A stretch of 56,431 nucleotides of DNA from Dehalococcoidia bacterium (lineage in GTDB: Bacteria; Chloroflexota; Dehalococcoidia; Bin125): positions 1-56,431 of the forward strand of contig JAJEBU010000092.1 of assembly GCA_022822375.1 (NCBI GenBank). The letters are read 5' to 3'. The notes below the pieces were generated by a model. The model did not search any database. It saw nothing but the letters and a program-made list of their open reading frames with translations, and was not told where the DNA came from. This document shows positions 2,968 to 30,816 of this stretch, piece after piece. Position 1 is the stretch's first letter. The number at the start of each line of letters is the position of its first letter. The position numbers were made by a program, and so were the translations under genes.

Positions 2968-4164
2968 TTAGCGGTACGGCAGGGCGTACAGGATGCCGCC
3001 TTCGCCGGGGCCGCAGTCCACCGCCTCGGAGGGCAGTGGTCGGGCGAGGGCATTCAGCGTGCAGTCACGTTCGATCGCGTCGCCGATCTCGCGGTCGTAG
3101 ATTTCGCCGTAGTTGCCGACGGCGGCAATCGCGCGCTGGATGAACTGCGCGTCGACGGCATCGAAGCCGAGCGTCGAGACGGAGCCGCCCTCGAAGGGAA
3201 CGCCCAGCAGGCGTGCGACTTCGGTGTTGGGCGGGTTGGCAGCCATGGCAGCCACGTTGGCCTGCGTCAAGCCGATCTCCTCAGCGCGGATCAGGCCGTG
3301 CACGACCCAGTTGACGACGTCTTTCCAGTCGCTGTCGTAGTCACGCACGCCGGGAGCCAGCGGCTCCTTGGAGATGATCTGCGGCAGGATCTTGTAGTCG
3401 TCGGCGTCATCGCGGACCACGATGCGCGAGGCGAGGTCAGAAGCGTCGGCAGTCAGCACGTCACAGCGGCCCTCGAAGAAGGCGGCGGCCACGTCCTGGC
3501 TCAGACCACCGGTCGGCTCGTAGTTGAGTCCGATGTCGGTGAAGTGGTCGGCCACGTTCTGCTCGGTGGTCGTACCAGTCTGGACACAGATGGCTGCATT
3601 GGCCATGTCGCTGGTCGAGTTGATGCCGGAGTCCTTGCGGACGGCGAAGCCCTGACCGGTGTAGAACGTGGTCTGAGCGAAGTCGACGTCGAGTTCCATG
3701 TCGCGCGAGCTGGTGATCGTCGTGGTCCGGATCAAGATGTCGATCTGACCATCGGCCAGCAACTCGAAGCGGGTGGAGGCGTCGGAGGCGTCGACGTACT
3801 CGACGGCGTCATGGTCCTTGAGCACCGCAGCGGCGATCGCCTTGCAGAACTCGATGTCGAAGCCGGTCACGTTGCCGTCGGCGTCGCGGTTACCGAACAG
3901 CGGCTGGGTCTGCTTGACGCCACACTTGAGGGTGCCGCGGTCCTGAACCAACTGGATCGTGTTGCCACGCGGCTCACCGGAGACCTGCGCTTGCGGCTGG
4001 TCCTGCTGTTGTTGCATGACCTGCTGCTGTTGTTCCACTGCTTGGGCCTGCTGATCGTCGTCGTCCGACGTACAGGCTCCAATCAGGGCACCGGCAAGCA
4101 GTGCCGCACCCGCAAACATCAAGGCGCTGACAAACCGCCTGCTCTTCAAACTCGGCAATCGCAT
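2968..4164 (-). CDS. Amino-acid ABC transporter substrate-binding lipoprotein (AapJ type)
   Basis: Extracytoplasmic solute-binding protein, family 3. The N-terminus has a basic n-region, a hydrophobic stretch and the lipobox LIGAC at about residues 27-31, so it should be lipid-anchored. A linker of DDDD and runs of Gln (residues ~33-60) tethers it. The mature domain carries RGTLKCGVKQTQPLFG and the family 3 core FDIEFCKAIAAAVLKD, with TTTITSSRD, as in general L-amino-acid binding proteins. It is the first gene of the import operon. AAAGGA lies 11 bases before the ATG, so translation may be modest. The nearby downstream hairpin suggests its transcript is the most abundant of the operon. Confidence 0.93.
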   Translation of the reverse strand: MRLPSLKSRRFVSALMFAGAALLAGALIGACTSDDDDQQAQAVEQQQQVMQQQQDQPQAQVSGEPRGNTIQLVQDRGTLKCGVKQTQPLFGNRDADGNVTGFDIEFCKAIAAAVLKDHDAVEYVDASDASTRFELLADGQIDILIRTTTITSSRDMELDVDFAQTTFYTGQGFAVRKDSGINSTSDMANAAICVQTGTTTEQNVADHFTDIGLNYEPTGGLSQDVAAAFFEGRCDVLTADASDLASRIVVRDDADDYKILPQIISKEPLAPGVRDYDSDWKDVVNWVVHGLIRAEEIGLTQANVAAMAANPPNTEVARLLGVPFEGGSVSTLGFDAVDAQFIQRAIAAVGNYGEIYDREIGDAIERDCTLNALARPLPSEAVDCGPGEGGILYALPYR

Positions 4165-4297
4165 TGCTCGCCCGTCCTTTCATGAACTGCATCTCTGCAG
4201 ACCGTCTCGCTAGTTGGTCAGTGTACACAGATTGTTAGAGGCTGATGACCTCAGTTGAGGGCTGATCCCAACGCTGGCTCGACTCGTTATGTAGTGG

Positions 4298-5533
4298 CTA
4301 GCGCTGGGACTCGGGCACCTCGAAGCCAAACAGGCGGGCGGCGTTGAGGCCGAGAATCTTCGCGCGTTCCTCGTCCGTCAGGTCGCCCATGGTGCGCTCG
4401 ATGGCGGCGGCCGAATGCGGCCACGATCCCTCGTGGTGCGGGTAGTCGTTCGCCCACAGCAGGTTGTCGACGAGGTCATACTTGCGCGCCAGGTCAACGC
4501 CGGGGCCGTCGTCCTGGAACGACCCGAAGCAATGCGCGCGGTAGTAGTCCGAGGGCAGACCCTCGAGCTTGGGGAACGCCCACATGTGGTGCTTGTGGTA
4601 GGCCTCGTCCATCGCGGTCAGCGCCCAGGGGATCCAGCCGATCCCGGCCTCGATCGTGCCTGCGCGCAGATCGGGGAAGCGCTGGAAGACGCCGGATGCG
4701 CACATGTTGATGATCGGCTCCATCGTCATCGCCAGCGAATGGAAGACGTAGTTGGTCACTGCGCCGCCGTTGCCACGCGCACCGCGCGGGTCGCGACCGG
4801 TCGAGACGTGGAAGGTGATCGGCAGGCCGGTCTCTTCAACAGCCGCCCAGAGCGGATCAAACTCGGGCAGGTTGTAGTTGCGGGAATCCTCGCCCGTCGG
4901 TCCCCAGACCGGTTTGGCCGGGAAGGAGAATCCGCGGAAGCCGCGCTCGGCCGAGCGCTGTACCTCGGCGATGGCGCCGGGGATGTCGCCGCTGGCCACG
5001 CAGGCCAACGGCGAGGAGCGGTCGTAGGTGTCGGCGAAGGTCTCCCAGGCCCAGTCGTTCCAGGCCGAGCACATCGCGTTGGCGAACACGGGGTCGGACG
5101 TGGCCCACATCGAGAGGCCCTTGTTGGGGAAGATGATCTCCGCGTCGACGCCGTCGAGGTCCATGTCGCGCACGCGCTCTTCGGGGAACGCATTGCCGTG
5201 CTTGTCGCGCACGAGGTCTTCGCCGGCCAGCTTGAGGTCGCGGATCTTGGTCGGGCGGTGACCCTCGGTCACCTGCCAGCGCACACCGTCCTCATCGACC
5301 TCGATGCGCGGCAGTCGGTGGCGGTACCGTTCGTCGACGCGGCGCTCCAGGAAGTCGACGGGCTCGTGGACGTGGCAGTCGGCGGAGACCATGAAGTACT
5401 TGTTGGGGTCAGACGGCTGGGCGGTGCGGGCCCAACCGCTGTTGCCAGGCGTGCGCCAGCGATGCTCGGGGATCTCATAGCGAAATCCATCAATCGCTGC
5501 AGTCGCCTGGGGCGGGCGTGAGCTGGTCACCAT
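4298..5533 (-). CDS. Amidohydrolase-family metal-dependent hydrolase (COG2159 type)
   Basis: TIM-barrel amidohydrolase_2 protein of 411 residues. Metal and active-site signatures visible are SADCHVHEP near the N-terminus, a central FHVSTGRD histidine, and the C-terminal LLWANDYPHHEGSWPHS with its Asp. Relatives include o-pyrocatechuate/ACMSD-like decarboxylases and hydrolases; the substrate cannot be read from sequence. I chose the ATG at 5533 because AAAGGA lies 8 bases upstream; an upstream in-frame TTG at 5554 has no such support. A second, diverged member of the family is at 52447. It stands alone on the minus strand. Confidence 0.85.
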   Translation of the reverse strand: MVTSSRPPQATAAIDGFRYEIPEHRWRTPGNSGWARTAQPSDPNKYFMVSADCHVHEPVDFLERRVDERYRHRLPRIEVDEDGVRWQVTEGHRPTKIRDLKLAGEDLVRDKHGNAFPEERVRDMDLDGVDAEIIFPNKGLSMWATSDPVFANAMCSAWNDWAWETFADTYDRSSPLACVASGDIPGAIAEVQRSAERGFRGFSFPAKPVWGPTGEDSRNYNLPEFDPLWAAVEETGLPITFHVSTGRDPRGARGNGGAVTNYVFHSLAMTMEPIINMCASGVFQRFPDLRAGTIEAGIGWIPWALTAMDEAYHKHHMWAFPKLEGLPSDYYRAHCFGSFQDDGPGVDLARKYDLVDNLLWANDYPHHEGSWPHSAAAIERTMGDLTDEERAKILGLNAARLFGFEVPESQR

Positions 5534-19909: not shown

Positions 19910-21241
19910 CTAGCGGCCGTGACGCCGTCCATGCTGAGGAGCAGGCCGCGTGACCATAATCGGCGATGGCGGCAGCACGCCGGCGCCGAAGCCGCCGCGA
20001 GGTCCCGGCAGCGTTGGGCGAGTCGAGATCAGCACCCAGATCAGGCCGGTGGCCGCGCCGATGCTGAAGACGACAAAGGGGATGTCGTAGCTGCCGAACG
20101 CATCACGCATGATCCCAGAGCCGAGCATGCCGATCGTCATGAACGGCATCATGACCATCGACGTCCAGCCCATGATTCGCCCAAACTGGGACGCGCCGAA
20201 GTAATCGGCCCGCAGCGATGTGACCAGCGTCCCGCGGGCGCCCCACGATACGCCGTTGAGCACCGCAAACACCATCAGCAGCCACCAACTGTTCGCCAAT
20301 CCCAACGAGACGCCGGCCACGCCGTGCCCGATCATGCAGAGCATCAAGAGCGGCCGCTTGGGATACTTGTCGCCCACCCAGGCCGAGAACAACTGTCCGA
20401 TCAGCTGCGTGACAACCATGACCGAGACCACGACCGCCCCGTCGCTTGCTTCGAATCCGGGCAGCTCGTCAATGTGCAGCACGCCATGCCCCAGCCACAT
20501 GCCGACGACCATCAGCGGAGTACCGTGCGCCAGCGCGAGCCCCCAGAAGGCGCGCGTCCGCAGCGCCTCGCGCGCGGTAAAGTCGCGATGCCGATGCGGA
20601 TTGACTGGCGGAAGGGTCGCCCCGTCGGCGCCTCGCGCCTCCGCGATGCCGCCGTCCACTTGCAGCCCTTTGTCGGACGGGTGACGGTGGAACAGGAACG
20701 ACAGCGCCCAACCAACGACGAGCATGAAGATGCCCGTGCCAATCGAGGCCTCCCGCCAGCCAACCGCGCCGATCAGCACGCTGACGACCGTGGCGATCAG
20801 CGCACCCAGAGTGAACCCGATCGACATGAAGCTGATCGCCCGTGATCGTTTGCGCTCGAACCAGGTCACGACGGCGACTGACACGGTCATGAACCCGCCC
20901 ATGGACGTACCGACGGAAAGCAGGATGTAGAAGCCGACAAACGAGACTTCGTCCCACAGCCGTCCGAACAGGATCATGCCGATGGCTGTGGCGGTGATAC
21001 CAAGCCGCATCATGGCACGCGGTCCCCAGCGGTCGATCATCCAGCCCTGGATCGGCCCCAGCAGGCCCGACTCCACTCGCGTGACCGCGGAGGCGACGCC
21101 GAACAGCGTCGCCGACCACATGAATTCGTCCTTGAGCGCGGCGGCATAGAAGCCGAATGCATGCATCACCAGGCCGCCCATCAACATATTGATGATCAGC
21201 CCAGCGCCGACGATGTACCAGCCATAGAAGATTCGAGGCAT
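19910..21241 (-). CDS. MFS transporter, OFA-like (paralogue 1)
   Basis: A 443-residue 12-helix carrier. It starts MPRIFYGWYIVGAGLIINMLMGG and has the MFS loop RWGPRAMMRLGI between helices 2 and 3. The general style resembles monocarboxylate/oxalate-formate-antiporter-like permeases, which import organic acids. It is closely similar to the next gene: both contain NMLMGGL, GVL/LGPIQGWMIDR and HRHRDFTAREALRTRAFWGLALAHG. It lies 25 bp after that gene and 51 bp before the GMC oxidoreductase. No good ribosome-binding site is visible, suggesting coupling. Confidence 0.9.
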   Translation of the reverse strand: MPRIFYGWYIVGAGLIINMLMGGLVMHAFGFYAAALKDEFMWSATLFGVASAVTRVESGLLGPIQGWMIDRWGPRAMMRLGITATAIGMILFGRLWDEVSFVGFYILLSVGTSMGGFMTVSVAVVTWFERKRSRAISFMSIGFTLGALIATVVSVLIGAVGWREASIGTGIFMLVVGWALSFLFHRHPSDKGLQVDGGIAEARGADGATLPPVNPHRHRDFTAREALRTRAFWGLALAHGTPLMVVGMWLGHGVLHIDELPGFEASDGAVVVSVMVVTQLIGQLFSAWVGDKYPKRPLLMLCMIGHGVAGVSLGLANSWWLLMVFAVLNGVSWGARGTLVTSLRADYFGASQFGRIMGWTSMVMMPFMTIGMLGSGIMRDAFGSYDIPFVVFSIGAATGLIWVLISTRPTLPGPRGGFGAGVLPPSPIMVTRPAPQHGRRHGR

Positions 21242-21266
21242 CTCGGAGGAGGGTATCGCGGGACTG

Positions 21267-22670
21267 CTAGCGTCCGGGCTCGCCGTGCTGCGGGGCTGGC
21301 CGGGTGACGTCAGTTGGCAACATCGAGCTGGCTCGCCAGCCTCCGCCGGGCAGGGTCGGACGGGTGGCGATCAGCACCCAGATCGCGCCCGTCACCGCGC
21401 CCAGTCCGAGCACTATGAAGGCAATCTCGTAGCTGCCGGTGGAATCGACCAGGACGGAGGAGATGAAGCCGCCGAGCGTCATGAAGGTGGACATCACGAT
21501 TGACGACCAACCCATGATCTGTCCGAAGTACCGGGCGCCGAAGTAGTCCGCGCGCAAGGCGGTGATCAGCGGTGCGCGCGATCCCCAGGCCAGACCGTTG
21601 ATGATCGCGGCGATCAGGATCGCCTCGTAGGTCGTCGCGAAGCCCAACAGAATCGCGGCAACGCAGTGACCAAACATCGCGGGAATGAGTAGCATCCGCT
21701 TCGAGAATCGGTCGCCGAGATAGCCCATCCCGATCTGTCCGACCAGCTGCGCGGCGTTCATGATCCCGTAGGCCACGCCGGAGTGAAACGCGGTCAGGCC
21801 GTCTACCTCCTCGACGAGCAGGGTGAAGTGCACGAAGACGCCGGAAATGACCAGCAACGGCGCGCCGTGAGCGAGCGCCAGGCCCCAGAAGGCGCGGGTG
21901 CGCAGCGCTTCGCGCGGCGTGAAGTCTCGGTGTCGATGCGAACTAGCGGGCCGCGACGACGTTGATGCGGCCGTCAGCTCCCCGCCGTCCTTTTGCAAGC
22001 CCCGATCCTCGGGACGTCGCACGAACAAGAAGGCCAGCGCCTGGCCGACGACGAAGAGTAGGGCCGCTGAAACCAAGGCGGTGTTGCGCCAGCCGAACTC
22101 CTGGATCATGGTGCCGACGGGAATCGCCAGGAAGCCACCGAAGGCGAACCCCGTGGACATGAAGCCGAGCGCCCGTGATCGCAGCCGCTCGAACCAGTTC
22201 ACGACCGCGACGGAGACGGTCATGAAGCCGCCCACGGACGATCCGATGGCGACGATGAAGTAGAAGCCGATGAACGTACTCTGGCTATTGAGCTGGGAGA
22301 AGAGCAAAAGCCCGATGGTGGTCGAGATGATCCCGAGTCGCATCATCGTTTGTGGGCCGAAGCGGTCGATGAGCCAGCCCTGGATCGGTCCGAGCACACC
22401 GGACTCGATGCGGGTGATCATGAAGGCCAGACCGAAGATCGTGGCAGGCCACAGGAATTCGTCAGTGAGCTCAGCGACGTAGAAATGGTAGGCGTGCATG
22501 ATCAGCCCGCCCATCAGCATGTTGATGATGATCCCGGCGCCGACGATGTACCAGCCGTAGAAGAGCTTGCCCTCAGAGGCGCGCGACCCGAACAACCCCG
22601 ATAACACCCGCAGTCCGCCTCCAGCCGGTCCGATCGTGCCGCAACGGGGCCGCCACTGACCGTTGCTCAT
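21267..22670 (-). CDS. MFS transporter, OFA-like (paralogue 2)
   Basis: A 467-residue carrier and evident tandem paralogue of the preceding entry. Helix 1 is KLFYGWYIVGAGIIINMLMGG, and the loop motif is RFGPQTMMRLGI. I prefer the ATG at 22670 (MSNGQWRPRCG) because longer upstream frames run into the divergent promoter of the cyclase gene. The N-terminus is about 35 residues longer than in paralogue 1. It is probably the first gene of a three-gene operon with paralogue 1 and the GMC oxidoreductase. Duplicate carriers suggest two related substrates or directions of transport. Confidence 0.88.
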   Translation of the reverse strand: MSNGQWRPRCGTIGPAGGGLRVLSGLFGSRASEGKLFYGWYIVGAGIIINMLMGGLIMHAYHFYVAELTDEFLWPATIFGLAFMITRIESGVLGPIQGWLIDRFGPQTMMRLGIISTTIGLLLFSQLNSQSTFIGFYFIVAIGSSVGGFMTVSVAVVNWFERLRSRALGFMSTGFAFGGFLAIPVGTMIQEFGWRNTALVSAALLFVVGQALAFLFVRRPEDRGLQKDGGELTAASTSSRPASSHRHRDFTPREALRTRAFWGLALAHGAPLLVISGVFVHFTLLVEEVDGLTAFHSGVAYGIMNAAQLVGQIGMGYLGDRFSKRMLLIPAMFGHCVAAILLGFATTYEAILIAAIINGLAWGSRAPLITALRADYFGARYFGQIMGWSSIVMSTFMTLGGFISSVLVDSTGSYEIAFIVLGLGAVTGAIWVLIATRPTLPGGGWRASSMLPTDVTRPAPQHGEPGR

Positions 22671-22702
22671 CCTATCGGCAGTCCACGCGACGTTCTGCGC
22701 TC

Positions 22703-22711
22703 TGGCATACT
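22703..22711 (+). promoter_or_regulatory. Candidate extended -10 element
   Basis: TGG followed by CATACT (22706-22711) forms an extended -10 sequence in the 87-bp gap between divergent genes. It is placed 46 bp before the cyclase ATG. No convincing -35 is seen. Weak evidence on its own. Confidence 0.35.
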
Positions 22712-22757
22712 GCGCGGGATTGGGGTGCAACGGCCCCGTCCTGGATTGGAGACTCCG

Positions 22758-23693
22758 ATGGCTGCTCAGACCGGTACGCGAGACGATGTGGATGCGCTGG
22801 CTCAACAGTTGTCGAACTGGGGACGCTGGGGTCCGGACGACGAGCGCGGCGCGCTCAACTTCATCACCCCCGCGGTATCAGCGGCGGCCGCCGCGCTCGT
22901 GCGCGAAGGCGTCACCGTCAGCTGCGCGTTGGAGCTGGCCAAGACTCCCGCGGCGGACAACCCGACTCCGGTCACTCACTTCATGACTGGCGCCGGCGAC
23001 GTCAGCGGACTGGGCGGGTTGCGCGGCTTGGAGTCGACCGGCGATGGCTTCGTGATCTCGCCGCACGGCATGGCGAACACGCACATTGACGCGCTCTGCC
23101 ACATCCTCGACCAGGGCAAAATGTACAACGGCTTCCCGGCCTCAGAGGTGCTCTCGACCGGCGCGCGCAAGAACTCGATCATGGGCCTCGAGCAGGGCAT
23201 CTCGACGCGCGGCGTACTGCTCGACATCCCGCGCCAGCGCGGCGTCGATTGGCTGGAGCCGGGCTATGGAATCACGGTCGACGACCTCGAAGCGGCGGAG
23301 TCGGCGCAGGGCGTGACCGTGCGCTCGGGCGACATCCTGCTGGTTCGCACCGGTCGCGACAATCGCCGCGAAGCGGAGGGCGCCACACCGCCGTTCGCCG
23401 GCATGGCTGGGCTGAACATGGAGTGTCTGCCCTGGATCCGCGAGCGCGAGGTGGCCATCCTGGGCTGCGACGGCGTGTCGGACGTGATTCCCTCCAACGT
23501 CGACGGGTCGCCGCTGCCGATCCACCACATCATCATCACCTACATGGGCGTGCATCTGATCGACAACGCGCGGCTCGGGCCCCTGGGCGACGCCTGCGCG
23601 GAGCGTCAGCGCTGGGAGTTCCTGCTGACCATCGCACCGCTGCGATTGGTCGGAGGCACGGCGTCGCCAATCAATCCGATCGCGATGTTCTAG
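22758..23693 (+). CDS. Cyclase-family metal-dependent hydrolase (kynurenine-formamidase-like)
   Basis: A 311-residue member of the putative cyclase (PF04199) family. The metal-binding signature HxD...H is seen in NTHIDALCHILDQG, and the C-terminal region has CDGVSDVIPSN and PIHHIIITYMGVHLIDN as in the long-form family. Characterised relatives hydrolyse formamides or open lactam/ester rings; substrate here unknown. The ATG at 22758 has TGGAGA six bases upstream. It is divergent from the MFS/GMC operon and may act on the same imported compounds. Confidence 0.88.
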   Translation: MAAQTGTRDDVDALAQQLSNWGRWGPDDERGALNFITPAVSAAAAALVREGVTVSCALELAKTPAADNPTPVTHFMTGAGDVSGLGGLRGLESTGDGFVISPHGMANTHIDALCHILDQGKMYNGFPASEVLSTGARKNSIMGLEQGISTRGVLLDIPRQRGVDWLEPGYGITVDDLEAAESAQGVTVRSGDILLVRTGRDNRREAEGATPPFAGMAGLNMECLPWIREREVAILGCDGVSDVIPSNVDGSPLPIHHIIITYMGVHLIDNARLGPLGDACAERQRWEFLLTIAPLRLVGGTASPINPIAMF

Positions 23694-23709
23694 GTCGGTG
23701 CGGGCGTCC

Positions 23710-24330
23710 ATGCGACGTCAACGAGGCTGGTCGGCCCGTAGCCCGAGGCTGCGGGCTGCGATGTTCGCGTTCAGCGCTGTCGCTGTTGCGCTGTACCTCG
23801 CGCTCTCCGCCGCGAGGGCCGCTGATTCTCCTGCGCAGACCATAGCGTTGCAACCCGGCGACAATCTCGTCGGTTGGGTGGCGGAGCCGAAGCCGGTCAC
23901 GGAGGTCTTTGCGGAGATACCTGAGACCAGCCTGATCTATCACTGGGACGCTGAGGAGCGGAGGTGGGCGTACGCCATTCGCGGGGTCGGCGGGAATCTG
24001 GAGACGCTGGAAGCGGGTATGGCCGTGACGGTCCGCGTCGGAGGCGATCAGACCGTCAGCTGGGAACGTCCGCTGACGCCAGCGAAGGGCAGCATCACGC
24101 TGTACTCAGGGGTCAACAGGGTCACGTGGCTGGGCCGGGATGAGTGGCCGTTGGATCAGGTGGCGCGTTTAGCGAGTCGTTCCGTGAGGTTGCTGAGCCC
24201 GCTCTTCATCGAGGAACAGTCCCCATGCTTTTCGCCCCTTGCGACTGTTGCAGTTCCCGCACAGCCCGATCCGATTCATCACGCCGTCTTCCCCGCCGCG
24301 GACCTTCGGAATGCGATGATCGAGATGTAA
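23710..24330 (+). pseudogene. Secreted repeat protein with its 3' end replaced
   Basis: The protein starts with a clear signal peptide (MRRQRGW..., hydrophobic core AAMFAFSAVAVALYLALSAARA). A module IALQPGDNLVGWVAEPKPV...EVFAEI...IYHWD follows. A second copy begins ITLYSGVNRVTWLGRDEWPLDQVAR and stops abruptly at 24168. From there the frame reads the antisense strand of the methyltransferase gene, whose stop codon is at 24169-24171. About 53 residues of the open frame are therefore not native. I judge that the gene lost its 3' part when the methyltransferase arrived. The intact family looks like surface or secreted proteins with tandem WD-containing modules; function unknown. Confidence 0.65.
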
Positions 24331-25653
24331 GTCCACCTTGCGCAGATTCTCTGAGTCGCAGTACGGATTCGCGCAGAGCCTGCCTTGTCGGTTCCAGAGG
24401 GCATCTCGCAGCTTTTGATCGGAGACACTCGGCACATCTGAGCGACGCAGGGTCTTGCGCACCGTGACGGGTTGATTCAGCATGTTCAGGCCAGTTGCTT
24501 CACGCAATCGGATGTACGTTGCTTCTTCAGCGACTGGATCGATGTCGATCCCGACCCACTGGCGATCTAGTAGCTCGGCCGCGACGCAGCTCGTGGCGCA
24601 GCCAGCGAATGGGTCTAGCACCACGTCTCCTTCATCGGTCCCACACTCGACCAACCGACGATACAGATCGAGCGGCTTGCGTGTGTCCCAGTCCAGTTCG
24701 CTCGGTTCGACCTGAACAACGTCATCCCAGATATCGTCACGCGGTTTGCCAGGTTGTTCGTCGAGATAACGCTTGAAACGCGGGACGTTGCCAGGCTTGG
24801 CCTGAACGACCCGTCCAGCAGCGTACTCAGCCTCCATCCGCTCCCGCGTCCAACGCCAGACGCGAGTCACTCCTAAGAATTCGTATGTCAAGTTCGGGCG
24901 ATCACGATTGGGGTTCGCCAAATCTGTCAACGAATAGCGACGCCCGTCGTCATCTCTTTTGTCGTACTGCTCGAGCGTTTTCCGTGTCTCTCCGTCAAGG
25001 TTCGCGTCGTCGAGGCTGGCCGCGTTCAGCATAGCCACATCGTAGGGCTCATATGAAGAGTTCCATTTGTACTTTGGAGTCTTTCCATACGTGAGCAGGG
25101 TGTCGCTATTGTTGGGCAGTCTGCGTGTACTCAGACCCTTGGCTGAGGCTCTGCGACGCGTGATCTCGTTGATGAAGTTGCGCCGGCCGAAGACGGCGTC
25201 GAGCAGCAACCTGAGGTACGCGTTGGCCTCGGTGTCGCATTGCATGAAGAGCACGCCGGTCGGCTTGAGCAGCCGATGCATTTCGACAACACGTGGCGCC
25301 ATGTACGCGAGATACGCAGCCATCGAGTTTTGGATGCGCCCCGTGTTGATCCTCCCGGTGCGATGGTCGACGGTTCCGCCCTCGATCACGACCGCGGCTT
25401 CGATGATCTCCTTGATCGCCGGATGGTCGCTCGCGATCAGGTCCTGCCATTCGTCGGTCACCTCGTCCCAACGCCAGCGATCGTCAAACCGCTGCTCAGC
25501 CTGCCTCGATCCCAGAGGGGCGTTGAATATGCGCTTCTTGTTGAAGGGTGGATCTGTCGCGATGCAGTCCACGCTCTCCGAATTCATCCCTCGAAGGATG
25601 CGGATGTTGTCCGCGACAAACAACGTCCGGTTCTGCCAGTTTGCCTCTGCCAT
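24169..25653 (-). CDS. DNA methyltransferase fused to a C-terminal HNH nuclease domain
   Basis: 494 residues. The beta-class amino-methyltransferase order is seen: motif IV ATDPPF (32-37) near the N-terminus, a long variable target-recognition region, then motif I VVLDPFAGC (344-352) and GIDIDP. After a linker comes an HNH domain: zinc ligands Cys427 and Cys432 (CANPYC), catalytic core LHLDHRIPKVRGGED with Asp445-His446, then Cys465 and Cys468 (CGNC) and NSRKG. One chain thus has both modification and cutting parts. No separate restriction gene is adjacent. Base composition is visibly less GC-rich than the flanks. Alternative: a nicking or repair nuclease rather than a restriction enzyme. Confidence 0.88.
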   Translation of the reverse strand: MAEANWQNRTLFVADNIRILRGMNSESVDCIATDPPFNKKRIFNAPLGSRQAEQRFDDRWRWDEVTDEWQDLIASDHPAIKEIIEAAVVIEGGTVDHRTGRINTGRIQNSMAAYLAYMAPRVVEMHRLLKPTGVLFMQCDTEANAYLRLLLDAVFGRRNFINEITRRRASAKGLSTRRLPNNSDTLLTYGKTPKYKWNSSYEPYDVAMLNAASLDDANLDGETRKTLEQYDKRDDDGRRYSLTDLANPNRDRPNLTYEFLGVTRVWRWTRERMEAEYAAGRVVQAKPGNVPRFKRYLDEQPGKPRDDIWDDVVQVEPSELDWDTRKPLDLYRRLVECGTDEGDVVLDPFAGCATSCVAAELLDRQWVGIDIDPVAEEATYIRLREATGLNMLNQPVTVRKTLRRSDVPSVSDQKLRDALWNRQGRLCANPYCDSENLRKVDLHLDHRIPKVRGGEDGVMNRIGLCGNCNSRKGRKAWGLFLDEERAQQPHGTTR

Positions 25654-25737
25654 ATCCAGAGGCTAATGCGGTTAGGCGGTTAATCCAACGCACCCCGACG
25701 CCTTTGGCGACTCTGGAACAGGACGAAGTAGGGCCCC

Positions 25738-26088
25738 TCAGAGCACCTCGCGGCCTCTTTCTCCCGTTCTGACTCTCACCGCTTCCTCGACGTCGGTGAC
25801 GAAGATTTTGCCGTCGCCGGTGCGGCCGTCGCCTTCGCTGCGCGCGCCCTCGATGATGGCGTTGATCGCTGGCTCCACGTTGAAGTCTGAGATCACGGTG
25901 ATGATCTTGACTTTCGGAATCATGTCAACGACGTAGAACTGTCCGCCGCGGCCGGCCTGGACGATGCCGCCCTGGTAGCCGTGTCCGACGACCCGTTCGA
26001 CGTGCAGCCCGGTGATCCCGCCCTCGATCAGCTTGCGTTTGACCGGTTCGAGTGACTCCGGGCGGATGATGGCTTCGATCTTCTTCAT
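25738..26088 (-). CDS. glnK: P-II nitrogen regulatory protein
   Basis: A 116-residue trimeric sensor of 2-oxoglutarate, ATP and ADP. Starts MKKIEAIIRPESLEPVK, and the B/C loops are conserved (TGDGKIFVTDVEEAVRVRTGERG). The T-loop (about 37-53) is one residue longer than in E. coli GlnB. Tyr52 in QFYVVDMIPK aligns with the uridylylated Tyr51, while the Tyr46 position is Gly. It overlaps the transporter gene by ATGA, so it is the GlnK-type partner that blocks the channel when nitrogen is plentiful. Whether it is covalently modified cannot be judged. Confidence 0.93.
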   Translation of the reverse strand: MKKIEAIIRPESLEPVKRKLIEGGITGLHVERVVGHGYQGGIVQAGRGGQFYVVDMIPKVKIITVISDFNVEPAINAIIEGARSEGDGRTGDGKIFVTDVEEAVRVRTGERGREVL

Positions 26089-27410
26089 GGCAGCAGCTTC
26101 CTCAGCGCTTGGGTGCCGGACGGAATCTCCTGGTCGATGCTTTCGCTGGCATCCCAGCCAAAGCCGATCTCGTCAAACTCGTAGGCCGGCTCGTTGTGTT
26201 CGCCGCGGTCGAGTCCGAGCATCTCTTGATGCTCGTCGACGCGCAGCGGCATCAGACGCTGAACCACGATGAACAGCAGGGCGGACAAGACGAACGACCA
26301 GCCCAGCGCGGCCAGGACGCCGATCGCCTGGCGCCAGATGAGGTCGGCCGAGCCGCCGATGAAGCCGTTCGGTCCGCCAGTGACTTCGGAGACGGCAAAG
26401 ATACCGATGGCGAGCGCGCCCCAGATGCCGCCGACGCCGTGCACGGCGAAGACGTCGAGCGTGTCATCCATATCGTGCCAGCGATGCATGGCGCGGATTG
26501 CGAAGAATCCCAGTAGTGATGCGACCGCGCCGATGCAGAGCGCCGGAAAGAAGTTGAGGTAGCCATCGGTCGCCGGCCATTGTCCGACGGAGCCGGCCGC
26601 AGGCGTGATCGCGACCAGTCCGGCGACCGCGCCCGTCGCAGCGCCGACGATTGACGGGTGTCCCGTGTAGCGCCAGGACAACAGGGTCCAGGCGACGAGT
26701 CCACCGGCGGCGGAGATTTGGGTCTGCACGAAGGCGTTGATCGCGGCGCCGTCGGCGGCCAGGGCGGAGCCGGCGTTGAAGCCGAACCAGCCGAACCAGA
26801 GCAGGCCTGCACCCAGCACGACCTTGGAGACGTCGTGTGGACGCGTCTCGGCGACGGAGTCGCGCCGGCGTCCGACGAAGAGTGCGCCAGCGAGGGCGGC
26901 AGCGCCTGCGTTGATGTGGACGACGGTACCGCCGGCGAAGTCGAGCGCGTCGAGCTGGAAGAGCCAGCCGTCTGGGTGCCAGACCCAGTGACAGAGCGGC
27001 GCGTAGACGACGGTGATCCAGAGCACGGTGAAGACCAGCAGCGCCTTGAACGAGATGCGCTCAACGAAGGCGCCGGTGATCAGCGCCGGCGTGATGATCG
27101 CGAACATCATCTGGAAGACCATGAAAGCGAGGCCGTCGGCGGTCGGTTCGAGTCCACGCAGGCCGAAGTTGGTGAGATTGCCGACGAATCCGCCGATGTC
27201 GGTGCCGAAGGCCAGCGAGTAACCCCACATGACCCAGACGACAGTGGCCACGCCGGCCATCACAAACGACTGCATGATGGTCGCGGCGGCCGACTTGGTG
27301 CGCACCAGACCGGAGTAGAAGAAGGCCAGACCCGGCGTCATCAGCAGGACCAAGGCCGCAGACGTCAACAGCCAGGCCGTGTTTCCGGCCTCGCCCACTT
27401 GTAGATCCAT
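26085..27410 (-). CDS. amtB: Ammonium transporter
   Basis: A 441-residue Amt/MEP/Rh channel. The N-terminus is NTAWLLTSAALVLLMTPGLAFFYSGLVR. The pore histidines are visible in LCHWVWHPDGW and DVFAVHGVGGIWGALA, and GFNAGSALAADG is the conserved mid-protein signature. ATG at 27410 is chosen since GGGGGAGA lies just upstream and because a longer GTG frame adds no family sequence. It comes first and the P-II gene second, reverse of the E. coli order. Expression is probably raised under nitrogen limitation; no specific operator was recognised. Confidence 0.93.
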   Translation of the reverse strand: MDLQVGEAGNTAWLLTSAALVLLMTPGLAFFYSGLVRTKSAAATIMQSFVMAGVATVVWVMWGYSLAFGTDIGGFVGNLTNFGLRGLEPTADGLAFMVFQMMFAIITPALITGAFVERISFKALLVFTVLWITVVYAPLCHWVWHPDGWLFQLDALDFAGGTVVHINAGAAALAGALFVGRRRDSVAETRPHDVSKVVLGAGLLWFGWFGFNAGSALAADGAAINAFVQTQISAAGGLVAWTLLSWRYTGHPSIVGAATGAVAGLVAITPAAGSVGQWPATDGYLNFFPALCIGAVASLLGFFAIRAMHRWHDMDDTLDVFAVHGVGGIWGALAIGIFAVSEVTGGPNGFIGGSADLIWRQAIGVLAALGWSFVLSALLFIVVQRLMPLRVDEHQEMLGLDRGEHNEPAYEFDEIGFGWDASESIDQEIPSGTQALRKLLP

Positions 27411-27560
27411 GTGCGTCTCCCCCTCTGGCGAAGCAGGCAAGCGACTTGATCGCCTGAATGTCCACGGGACCAGTTCTCCCCAGTGTGACTCCGACCGGCG
27501 CGCGTCTGGTTACAGCGATATGAATTCAGCGCGAGCGGCGGTCGGTGATACCATCGGCGC

Positions 27561-28325
27561 ATGACGGACGAGCCCCAACTCGCTCTGCACGGAGACATCG
27601 CCCTCGTCACCGGGGCGTCGCGTGGGATCGGCCGGGCGATCGCGCTCGAGCTGGCGCGTCAAGGCGCTGATGTCGGCGTGAACTACTCCGCTTCGGCTGA
27701 CGCCGCGGCGGCGGTCGCGGCGGAGATACGCGATCTGGGCCGAAAGGCCGTGGTGGTCCAGGCCGACATCTCCGACGCCGAGGCGGTCACGGCAATGACC
27801 AAGACGGTCAACGCCGAACTCGGCCCGCCGACGATCCTTGTCAACAACGCCGGTATCACCCGCGACATGCTGGCCATGCGCATGAAGTCGGACGACTGGC
27901 AAGCGGTCGTGGGCACCAACCTGACCGGCTCGTTCCTGGCCTCGCAGTCCGTGCTGCGCGGGATGCTGCGGGCGCGCAAGGGGCGGATCATCACGATCGG
28001 TTCGGTGATCGGTACCGTCGGCAATGCGGGTCAGGCCAACTACGCGGCGGCCAAGGCCGGCTTGGCGGGCATGACCCGTTCGCTCGCGCACGAGCTGGGC
28101 TCGCGCGGGATCACGGTCAATCTGGTCGCGCCGGGATTCATCCAGACGGACATCACCGCCGATCTGTCGGATGATGTGATCGGCGCCGTGATGCAGCGCA
28201 TCCCGCTCGAGCGGCTCGGCGATCCTGCGGACGTGGCGCCATTGGTGGCGTTCCTGGCCGGTCCGGGCGGCGCGTACATCACGGGCCAGGTGATTCACGT
28301 CGACGGCGGGATGGTCATGGCCTGA
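27561..28325 (+). CDS. fabG: 3-oxoacyl-ACP reductase
   Basis: Short-chain dehydrogenase of 254 residues performing the NADPH-dependent ketoreduction in fatty-acid elongation. The cofactor motif TGASRGIG is at 17-24, NNAG at 95-98, and the catalytic set Ser148, Tyr161, Lys165 (NYAAAKAG) is present. The end is GAYITGQVIHVDGGMVMA, typical of FabG. It begins a plus-strand fatty-acid cluster and is divergent from amtB. No Shine-Dalgarno is visible and GATACC lies close to the ATG, so a leaderless or very short-leader mRNA is possible. Confidence 0.9.
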   Translation: MTDEPQLALHGDIALVTGASRGIGRAIALELARQGADVGVNYSASADAAAAVAAEIRDLGRKAVVVQADISDAEAVTAMTKTVNAELGPPTILVNNAGITRDMLAMRMKSDDWQAVVGTNLTGSFLASQSVLRGMLRARKGRIITIGSVIGTVGNAGQANYAAAKAGLAGMTRSLAHELGSRGITVNLVAPGFIQTDITADLSDDVIGAVMQRIPLERLGDPADVAPLVAFLAGPGGAYITGQVIHVDGGMVMA

Positions 28326-28364
28326 TACTGTTTCAGGCCGGCGTAACGTTCGCCGCGTCGTGCG

Positions 28365-28388
28365 GCACATTGGGCCTGCACATTGGGC
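28365..28388. repeat. 11-bp direct repeat in the fabG-fabD gap
   Basis: GCACATTGGGC occurs twice, at 28365-28375 and 28378-28388, with a 13-bp period. The first copy contains TTGGGC, a possible -35, 17 bp before CATACT (28393-28398), and TACAAT occurs at 28429-28434. The arrangement fits an operator over a promoter that drives fabD and its followers. Not matched to any known fatty-acid regulator. Confidence 0.5.
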
Positions 28389-28498
28389 ACTGCATACTGG
28401 ATAGTCGCACGACAAGCAGCAGAGTCGGTACAATTGGCTATCAACCCGTCGGAGCATCGCGACGTTCACCGCCACGGAGCCGATGGTCAGGAGCCGAG

Positions 28499-29539
28499 AT
28501 GGACACCGAGACCCAAGCGGCAGACCCCGCAGAAGAACCGCCAAGCGGCGAACACCCCGCTCTGACCGACGACGAATACGCGCTGCTCTTCCCTGGTCAA
28601 GGATCGCAGTCGGTCGGCATGGCCGGCAAGGTGCTGACCGTGTACCCGAACGCTCAGCACTGGTTCAACCGCGCCAACGAGGTGCTGGATTATGACCTGC
28701 TGCACCTGATTGAGCACGGCCCGACGGAAGATCTGAACCAGACGACGCATTCGCAGCCGGCGATCTTCGTCGCCTCCGTCGCCTGGCTCGAGGCGCTGCG
28801 CCACAAGTGGGATCATGCGGGCTGGACGCTCTCGCCCAAGCTGGTTTCGGGCCACAGCATGGGACAGATCACCGCGATGTTCGCCGCGCGCGCGGTCGAC
28901 TTCGACGAGGCGCTGCAGCTCGTCCGACGCCGAGCGGAGGTGATGCACGCCGCCGACAGCATGCGGCCGGGCGGTATGGCGTCGATCATCGGCCTGCGCG
29001 ACCGCGTGCTGCGGCGCCTGGTGGGCGAGGCGCAGGAGGAGGGCACGCTCGTGGTGGCCAACGACAATTGCCCTGGCCAGACGGTCGTCTCGGGCGACGA
29101 GGCGCCGCTGGAGAAGATGATGCGCCTCGCCGATGAGCAGGGCGCGCGACGCGTCGTCCGCCTGCCGATCTCGATCGCCTCGCACTCGCCGCTGATGTCG
29201 GAAGCCCAGACGCACTTCTCGGAGGCGGTCCACTCGGTCAACTGGCGAGATCCGGTTGTGCCGGTCGTGAGCAACATCTCGGGCGGTCTGATGCACACCA
29301 AGGAACAGCTGGCGCATGAGTTGTCGGAGGCGCTGACGGCGCCGGTCCAGTGGCAGCAGGCGGTCAAGACCATGGCCGCGCAAGGGTCGACGCTGTTCGT
29401 CGAAGCAGGACCGGGCGACGTGCTCTCCAAGTTGGTGCGTCGCATCTCGCGCTCGTCCTGGACGTTCCCCGTCTCGGACGACGATCACGGGCTCTCGCAT
29501 CGTGATTACCCGGACAAGAGCGACGGGATCCCCAAGTAG
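28499..29539 (+). CDS. fabD: Malonyl-CoA:ACP transacylase
   Basis: 346 residues; loads malonyl groups from CoA onto acyl carrier protein. LLFPGQGSQSVGMAG (29-43) is the family start, the nucleophile is Ser120 in SGHSMGQ, and the partner His229 is in SIASHSPLM. About 25 acidic residues precede the domain. ATG 28499 has AGGAG five bases upstream; a longer frame upstream overlaps the repeat-bearing promoter region. The stop codon overlaps the next gene's GTG by one base, showing tight coupling. Confidence 0.93.
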   Translation: MDTETQAADPAEEPPSGEHPALTDDEYALLFPGQGSQSVGMAGKVLTVYPNAQHWFNRANEVLDYDLLHLIEHGPTEDLNQTTHSQPAIFVASVAWLEALRHKWDHAGWTLSPKLVSGHSMGQITAMFAARAVDFDEALQLVRRRAEVMHAADSMRPGGMASIIGLRDRVLRRLVGEAQEEGTLVVANDNCPGQTVVSGDEAPLEKMMRLADEQGARRVVRLPISIASHSPLMSEAQTHFSEAVHSVNWRDPVVPVVSNISGGLMHTKEQLAHELSEALTAPVQWQQAVKTMAAQGSTLFVEAGPGDVLSKLVRRISRSSWTFPVSDDDHGLSHRDYPDKSDGIPK

Positions 29540-30816
29540 TGACTGCCGATGCGTTTCGGGCCAATAGCGGGCGCCGTGTCGTGATCACGGGTGTGGGCGC
29601 GGTCACGCCTGTCGGCAACGACATGCCCACCACCTGGCAGAATCTCCTCGCGGGCGAGAGTGGCGTGGATCGCATCAAGCGGTTCGACCCCGAAGCGTGG
29701 GGGGCGAAATCGCCAATCGCAGCGGAGGTCAAGGATTTCGACCCCGAGTCGGTGCTGCCCGACGCCAAGGCGCTGCGTCACATGGACCTGAACACGCAGT
29801 ACGCGATGTCGGCCGGGATCGAAGCGTTCTCGGACTCGGGCTTGACGATCAACGAGGACAATCAACACCGAGTCGGCATCATCTTCGGGTCGGGCGGCGG
29901 CGGGATGGAGCTGGTCACGCGCTGGCAAGACACGCTGGTAGAGCGCGGCGCGCGGCGGGTCTCACCGTTCGCCATGCCCAACCTGATCGCCGACGCCGCG
30001 TCTGGCCACCTGTCGATTGCGACCGGTGCGACGGGGCCCAACTTCTCGCCGACCTCGGCCTGCGCGACCGGCGCCAACGCGGTCGCCGACGGACTCTTGC
30101 AGATCAAGGCCGGCCGCGCCGACGCCCTGATCGTGGGCGGTTCAGAGGCGATCATCTTGCCGCTCTTCCACGTCTGCTTCGAACGAATGGGCGTGCTCGC
30201 CACGCCGGCCGAGCCGCTCTCGACGTCCTGCGCGCCCTACGACTTGCACCGCAACGGGTTCGTGCCGGGCGAGGGCGCGGCGGCGATGATGATCGAGGAC
30301 CTCGACCACGCGCTCGCTCGCGGTGCACCGATCTATGCCGAAGTCGTCGGCGGCGGATCGGCCAACGACGCGCACGATATCGCCCAGCCGGAGTCGCACG
30401 GACGCGGGCTGATGGTCAGCGTGCAGCAGGCGCTGGAGGAGTCCAACATCGACCCCACCCAGATCGGTTACGTGTCCACACACGGCACGGCGACGCGGCT
30501 GGGCGATCTCGTCGAGGTCACCGCGATGCGGCGCATGTTCGGCTCGCATGTCGATGACCTGGCGCTCTCCTCGATCAAACCGGCCACCGGCCACATGATG
30601 GGCGCGTCGGGCGCGCTGGAAGTCATCATCTCGGCGATGGTGCTGAAGGAAGGCGTCGCGCCGCCGACGCTGAACTACAACACGCCCGATCCCGAACTAG
30701 ACGTCGACGTCATTCCCAACGTGGCGCGAGAGCTGCAAACGGAGGCGGCGCTGTCGTTCTCGGTCGGACTGGGCGGCCACAATGCCGCCGTGCTGCTGAA
30801 ACGCTACGTCGCATGA
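29539..30816 (+). CDS. fabF: 3-oxoacyl-ACP synthase II, copy 1
   Basis: A 425-residue condensing enzyme that elongates acyl-ACP with malonyl-ACP. The Cys-His-His set is complete: Cys175 in PTSACATGAN, His315 in VSTHGTATRLGD, His352 in KPATGHMMGASG. The start is GTG, sharing its first base with the last base of the fabD stop. It is followed by a second ketosynthase with an ATGA overlap. Standard length and good conservation point to ordinary fatty-acid synthesis. Confidence 0.93.
   Translation: MTADAFRANSGRRVVITGVGAVTPVGNDMPTTWQNLLAGESGVDRIKRFDPEAWGAKSPIAAEVKDFDPESVLPDAKALRHMDLNTQYAMSAGIEAFSDSGLTINEDNQHRVGIIFGSGGGGMELVTRWQDTLVERGARRVSPFAMPNLIADAASGHLSIATGATGPNFSPTSACATGANAVADGLLQIKAGRADALIVGGSEAIILPLFHVCFERMGVLATPAEPLSTSCAPYDLHRNGFVPGEGAAAMMIEDLDHALARGAPIYAEVVGGGSANDAHDIAQPESHGRGLMVSVQQALEESNIDPTQIGYVSTHGTATRLGDLVEVTAMRRMFGSHVDDLALSSIKPATGHMMGASGALEVIISAMVLKEGVAPPTLNYNTPDPELDVDVIPNVARELQTEAALSFSVGLGGHNAAVLLKRYVA

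Follow-up and report, generated by a model that had tools for sequence, protein, structure and literature searches.

Introduction

Single-chain restriction-modification is already well known; enzymes of Type IIC/IIG cleave site-specifically, AdoMet stimulating the reaction or being required for it and their own methylation blocking it. In the Type IIC/IIG enzymes (the MmeI, Eco57I and TspDTI family; BtgZI) the endonuclease and methylase domains lie in one polypeptide, one recognition module apparently serves both activities, specificities diverge within a family and the simplest cases need no separate methyltransferase (PMC4081073, PMC4752239). The shared recognition region is the defining trait of Type IIG-like systems (PMC4752239). 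According to a 2014 review, most Type IIC enzymes join an N-terminal PD-(D/E)XK nuclease to a gamma-class methylase; BtgZI, with an alpha-class methylase and a C-terminal PD-(D/Q)XK variant, is the exception named there (PMC4081073). Type III systems (EcoP15I, Mbo45V) have a Mod subunit with a beta-class methylase core and leave cutting to a separate Res helicase-nuclease. EcoKMcrA, ScoMcrA, GmeHNH and the HNH domains of type II-C Cas9 and IscB come without a methylase, and the McrA-type enzymes read modified DNA.

Here we describe a gene in a 56,431-nucleotide stretch of DNA (the window; contig JAJEBU010000092.1) from a Dehalococcoidia bacterium of the Chloroflexota. Its product resembles the Type IIC/IIG enzymes in carrying methylase and nuclease on one polypeptide, but differs from their usual (not formal) architecture: the methylase is beta-class, the nuclease is a C-terminal HNH domain and the chain has only 494 residues, with relatives that are either HNH or Mrr-like. 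The methylase core is of the kind found in Type III Mod, and no res gene lies among the genes scanned near the locus. With the McrA-type, GmeHNH and Cas9/IscB nucleases it has in common the HNH fold, the Cys4 zinc site and the catalytic motif. A fusion of a beta-class methylase with a C-terminal HNH was not found described in the openly available papers searched; this is weak evidence of absence and we claim no priority. Judging from its sequence, we consider it likely that the gene encodes a complete one-gene restriction-modification enzyme, working as Type IIC/IIG enzymes do but on a different chassis.

Results and discussion

The methylase core

The features of the locus are collected in Table 1.

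Table 1 Features of the methylase–HNH locus, in window coordinates
Feature	Position	Strand	Basis
Replacement segment, 1,572 bp, holding only the methylase–HNH gene and its 86-bp upstream region	24168..25739		Alignment to the uninterrupted syntenic site (G007 contig 155)
5′ remnant of interrupted gene, function unassigned, probably secreted; the intact G007 version has 782 aa	23698..24167	+	Alignment to G007
P-II protein gene bordering the segment on its other side (given for context, outside the system)	25738..26088	−	Alignment, gene annotation
Methylase–HNH gene, ATG start, 494 aa	24169..25653	−	ORF, Pfam, family conservation, predicted fold
N-terminal catalytic core, residues 1–195; motif IV DPPF at 34–37 (~25543–25554)	25069..25653	−	Pfam, conservation, predicted fold; limits approximate
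Putative target-recognition region (TRD), residues 196–318	24700..25068	−	Variable block between motifs IV–VIII and X–I, discordant tree; limits approximate
C-terminal catalytic core, residues 319–388; motif X and AdoMet motif I, DPFAGC at 347–352	24490..24699	−	Pfam, conservation
Linker, residues 389–411, relaxed constraint (pN/pS 0.47)	24421..24489	−	pN/pS
HNH nuclease domain, residues 412–476 (C427, C432, D445, H446, N460, C465, C468, N469, K472)	24226..24420	−	Pfam, conservation, predicted fold

Within the 494-residue chain Pfam places N6_N4_Mtase (PF01555) at residues 28–376 (E = 2e-34), and the profile of PHROG 67, a DNA methyltransferase family, also matches the methylase (E = 5.5e-43). 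Both DPPF and DPFAGC are nearly invariant across the family. The motif order, IV then TRD then I, is that of the beta-class amino-methyltransferases, with DPPF before the recognition region and a DPFxGxGT-like motif I after it. An AlphaFold2 model of the whole chain, calculated from 40 family sequences, has a mean pLDDT of 84.6 and a Rossmann-like methyltransferase fold; a structure search matched it to M.BceJIV, MboIIA, CcrM and RsrI with Z of 23–25, and the Type III Mod subunits EcoP15I and Mbo45V were also among the best matches. An earlier annotation made from the letters of this DNA (the sequence-only reading) had assigned beta-class motifs to the chain, an assignment that the reading frame, Pfam, the motif order and the predicted fold confirm. 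On these grounds residues 1–195 and 319–388 form a beta-class amino-methyltransferase. The predicted modification is probably m6A, because of the DPPF motif and the closest structural relatives.

The HNH domain

Pfam locates an HNH domain (PF01844) at residues 431–474 with E = 6.6e-8, above the curated cutoff. This bears out the sequence-only reading, which had seen on the same chain four zinc cysteines and an LDH core; the cysteines are C427, C432, C465 and C468, and the core is at residues 444–446. The catalytic spacing D-H-x13-N-x8-N is present. A search for homologues with the same domain order, which that reading had advised, recovered both domains by Pfam and about 34 relatives that keep the architecture and the residues; the combination is thus far beyond chance. 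The seven residues C427, C432, N460, C465, C468, N469 and K472 are invariant in all 34 aligned fused relatives; 33 of them retain D445 and 32 retain H446. Asn replaces D445 in one member (L036). Two closely related members, L060 (4103–5740, −) and L063 (4183–5820, +), have DR instead of DH and so lack the catalytic His, with no change at the cysteines or the Asn positions. Their activity may be lost or their function altered, and a minority of the family may therefore be inactive. The sequence-only reading would have been undermined by an HNH part that was degenerate or always absent in homologues. We find D/N445–H446 in 32 of the 34 and the Cys4 set, N460 and N469 in every one, and the relatives that lack HNH have a Mrr-like nuclease instead.

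Selection tells the same story. Among six close homologues (70–88% identity) pN/pS is 0.18 in the HNH domain as against 0.19 and 0.23 in the two methylase blocks; in the same six it is 0.25 in the recognition region and rises to 0.47 in the linker. By this measure the HNH domain is under purifying selection as strong as that on the methylase core, and it is therefore maintained by selection within the window enzyme's own clade.

The HNH domain was also folded and structure-searched alone, apart from the whole-chain model, whose match list did not include it, an absence that carries no weight for or against the domain. The resulting model (pLDDT 90.5) matches the HNH domains of type II-C Cas9, with Z up to 8.9 for Acidothermus Cas9, the GmeHNH nicking enzyme (Z 6.7) and EcoKMcrA (Z 5.8). 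The Foldseek E-values are modest, the domain being so small; the profile matches are clear (6e-13 for Acidothermus Cas9, 2e-10 for GmeHNH) and the block aligns to both without a gap. The domain thus presents a Cys4 zinc site and the D-H ... N ... N/H residues within an HNH fold.

These matches bear on a different account, in which the HNH domain would be a nickase or would act on modified or hemimethylated DNA; the chain would methylate its own site and the HNH domain would work in another step, for example a type IV-like attack on foreign modification. GmeHNH, the closest single-domain structure, is a Mn-dependent nicking endonuclease, the next structural matches (EcoKMcrA and ScoMcrA) are modification-dependent HNH restriction enzymes, and the cut made by one HNH site is confined to one strand. 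A modification-dependent enzyme that shared its recognition region with a fused methylase would, however, attack its own product unless it read another mark, and Pfam detected no second reader domain (SRA, EVE, wH) in the 494-residue chain. The methylase sites, moreover, are fully conserved. We regard this account as unlikely.

A second nuclease type in the family

A similar methylase is present in 85 of 100 genomes of relatives of the host, often in several copies. Those relatives without HNH that were examined carry a Mrr_cat/NA-iREase1 domain at the same C-terminal position, and both types are present among 301 Chloroflexota genomes drawn across the phylum. The alignment of this Mrr-like PD-(D/E)XK sister domain has a conserved block, GxDxGIDG...(S/Q)VK, and Asp430 and Lys451 (Asten numbering) are present in all 95 readable rows. 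The Pfam model that matches the domain, NA-iREase1, is named after inactive nucleases; here the catalytic Asp and Lys are kept. Mrr-type relatives include Streptomyces phage Asten gp48, Mycobacterium phage Dori/Mask gp42 and PHROG 67. They have the same methylase core (35–45% identity) and in some cases the same recognition region (55–63%), and their nuclease, at the same C-terminal position, is Mrr-like PD-(D/E)XK where the window enzyme has HNH. No characterised Mrr-type member was found in the published literature searched. Phage and plasmid records annotate the Mrr-type proteins solely as DNA methylases, and PADLOC registers these proteins as methylase only, the nuclease part going unrecognised.

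The window protein, used alone as the query, found no relative in viral contigs; the family alignment found 402. At the best 80 viral loci there are 81 family ORFs, 80 of them Mrr-type, one HNH-type (L155) and none nuclease-free. One viral contig has two Mrr-type members in tandem (L166, 2–3606, +). In two members from elsewhere in the genus the protein is split into overlapping ORFs in different frames, of 335 and 280 aa in L055 (about 3978–5422, −) and of 302 and 337 aa in L058 (about 4068–5529, −); a pseudogene, an assembly error and phase variation are the alternatives.

In our judgement, the best argument for DNA cutting as the role of the C-terminal domain is that two unrelated nuclease folds occupy one position on the methylase. 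The arrangement also tells against a solitary regulatory methylase on which the HNH and Mrr-like domains would be merely structural or DNA-binding. The loss of the HNH histidine in two members would suit such a protein, as would the sister domain's best match being to a model named “inactive”, but each of the two folds keeps its catalytic residues, the constraint on HNH equals that on the methylase core, and the distribution of the family, which is patchy and mobile, with multiple copies whose recognition regions have diversified, is unlike that of a conserved regulatory methylase. It seems to us quite unlikely.

For the family as a whole we lean, with some reserve, towards an uncharacterised superfamily of minimal single-chain restriction-modification enzymes of about 420–570 residues, built on a beta-class methylase, with exchangeable recognition region and nuclease type (HNH or Mrr-like PD-(D/E)XK), that would move as one gene and supply single Chloroflexota genomes of the clade with several specificities.

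Exchange of the recognition region

A tree of the methylase core, calculated without residues 196–318 and including both HNH-type and Mrr-type proteins, places all HNH-type proteins in one clade (bootstrap/SH-aLRT 100/100) nested among the Mrr-type. When residues 196–318 are included, the window clade groups with Mrr-type phage and plasmid proteins. The tree of the TRD only requires six changes of nuclease type; a single origin is seen in no bootstrap tree, and HNH-type as one clade is rejected (p-AU 0.003). Pairwise identities agree. The window TRD is 55–63% identical to those of the Mrr-type enzymes from Asten, Mask and a Microbacterium plasmid, and 11–32% identical to those of most other HNH-type enzymes despite 40–46% identity in the core. 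Copies within one genome differ in the same way, with TRD identity mostly 11–42% against 38–66% for the N-terminal cores; one such pair, in G014, reaches 55% in the TRD. The recognition region has thus been exchanged between HNH-type and Mrr-type chains, as read from these alignments. A second, independent gain of HNH, which the tree with residues 196–318 had suggested, is rejected: without the TRD all HNH forms are one clade, and the TRD-only tree confirms the exchange. Each chain shows one variable recognition region, exchanged as a block, and from this exchange we infer that one region would direct both methylation and cleavage.

Transfer of the gene and its surroundings

Gene order is the same in contig 155 of a related genome, G007, where an unbroken gene of 782 residues takes up the corresponding position. 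The flanks align at 89% (window 20004–24167) and 91% (25740–30000), and the 1,572 bp between them (24168–25739) stand where G007 has 1,867 bp of the neighbouring gene. Since the 5′ remnant of the interrupted gene (23698–24167) is still there, the window shows the derived state. On the left, the junction falls one base past the methylase stop codon. The G+C content is 58.6% in the coding sequence against 65.7% in the flanks, and GC3 is 0.70 against 0.84. G007 has its own copy of the enzyme, 88% identical, elsewhere in its genome. In nearly all pairs of close homologues DNA homology ends at the ends of the ORF, only L010 and L013 sharing flanks. By these alignments the gene has moved alone, as one gene, and the suggestion of the sequence-only reading that such a chain would be compact and transferable is supported by the uninterrupted site in G007 and by the loss of homology beyond the ORF, where the flanks are otherwise unrelated. 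Besides Chloroflexota, two records labelled Alphaproteobacteria (L011, L014) contain close homologues; the label may err because these records are metagenome bins. Several of the bins that hold close homologues presumably come from marine sponges. We note that the interrupted gene (about 23698–24168, +) belongs to an expanded family: the host genome has five matches to it, and as many as 14 occur in a relative of the genus.

A selfish mobile gene, whose HNH breaks would aid its own insertion in a homing-like manner with the methylase protecting the host, is very improbable: the transferred unit ends 1 nt past the stop codon on one side and relatives occupy many unrelated places, but the insertion came with the loss of those 1,867 bp, whereas homing endonuclease genes insert precisely into their own cleavage site and have the unoccupied allele as substrate, no common target sequence is seen by eye at the junctions, and close copies lie at different sites.

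The genes at 18.3–29.5 kb encode a GMC oxidoreductase, two MFS transporters, a cyclase, P-II, AmtB, an SDR and an acyltransferase. Among the annotatable genes of this interval there is no separate nuclease, methylase or helicase (Res) gene, and within it the earlier statement that no separate nuclease gene is nearby holds. At nine other loci Pfam found no nuclease or methylase domain in adjacent ORFs, many of which have no Pfam match and some of which are perhaps not genes. A conserved companion gene was sought in the window clade and not found. In L085 (4149–6451, +) a TIR-domain gene of 343 aa lies downstream of the methylase–HNH gene and shares 4 nt with it; PADLOC gives this TIR gene a weak ThsB-like match. 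In L053 (4263–7212, +) it is followed by two overlapping ORFs of 321 and 144 aa, the first without a Pfam match. The two MFS transporter genes of the window (19910–21241, − and 21267–22805, −) align to each other's counterparts at 67–68% DNA identity and are for this reason probably a tandem duplication.

Proposed mechanism

A one-gene restriction-modification enzyme, put forward as a candidate by the sequence-only reading, emerges as the best-supported interpretation, from the integrity of the HNH domain in relatives and its replacement by a Mrr-like nuclease. Several observations weigh against it: the DR of L060 and L063, the Asn for Asp of L036 and the frameshifts in L055 and L058; the ability of HNH domains to nick instead of making double-strand cuts, with a nicking enzyme as closest single-domain structure; and the recognition of the methylase alone by PADLOC, together with the name of the NA-iREase1 model.

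If the enzyme works in this way, the recognition region would position the chain on its DNA sequence. On host DNA, where the site is methylated beforehand, the enzyme would methylate the second strand or leave, and its own methylation would block cleavage. On phage or plasmid DNA entering the cell, where the site is wholly unmethylated, the HNH domain, a putative Cys4-zinc nuclease tethered by a short flexible linker, would cut one strand at or near the site, which would give the gene a role in defence. To break both strands, two chains would have to act together, for instance as a dimer or from two bound sites. Since a single recognition region would serve both activities, exchanging it alone would alter the specificity of methylation and of cleavage at once, and such a single exchangeable region would explain the several copies with unrelated recognition regions in one genome. 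For Type IIC chains it has been proposed that self-harm is avoided because monomers methylate at low concentration and cutting follows only after assembly (PMC12707154); by analogy, our guess is that the methylase–HNH enzyme might do the same.

Conclusions

If the HNH domain cuts, the enzyme would be a complete restriction-modification system of very small size, a single 1.5-kb gene acting without a partner. That the TRD has been exchanged in nature between HNH-type and Mrr-type proteins points to a scaffold with replaceable specificity and replaceable cutter, a goal of Type IIG engineering. Since PADLOC and PHROGs register these proteins only as methylases, estimates of restriction in phages, plasmids and Chloroflexota may be too low. 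The family also makes it possible to test how one chain spares its host before the host genome is methylated.
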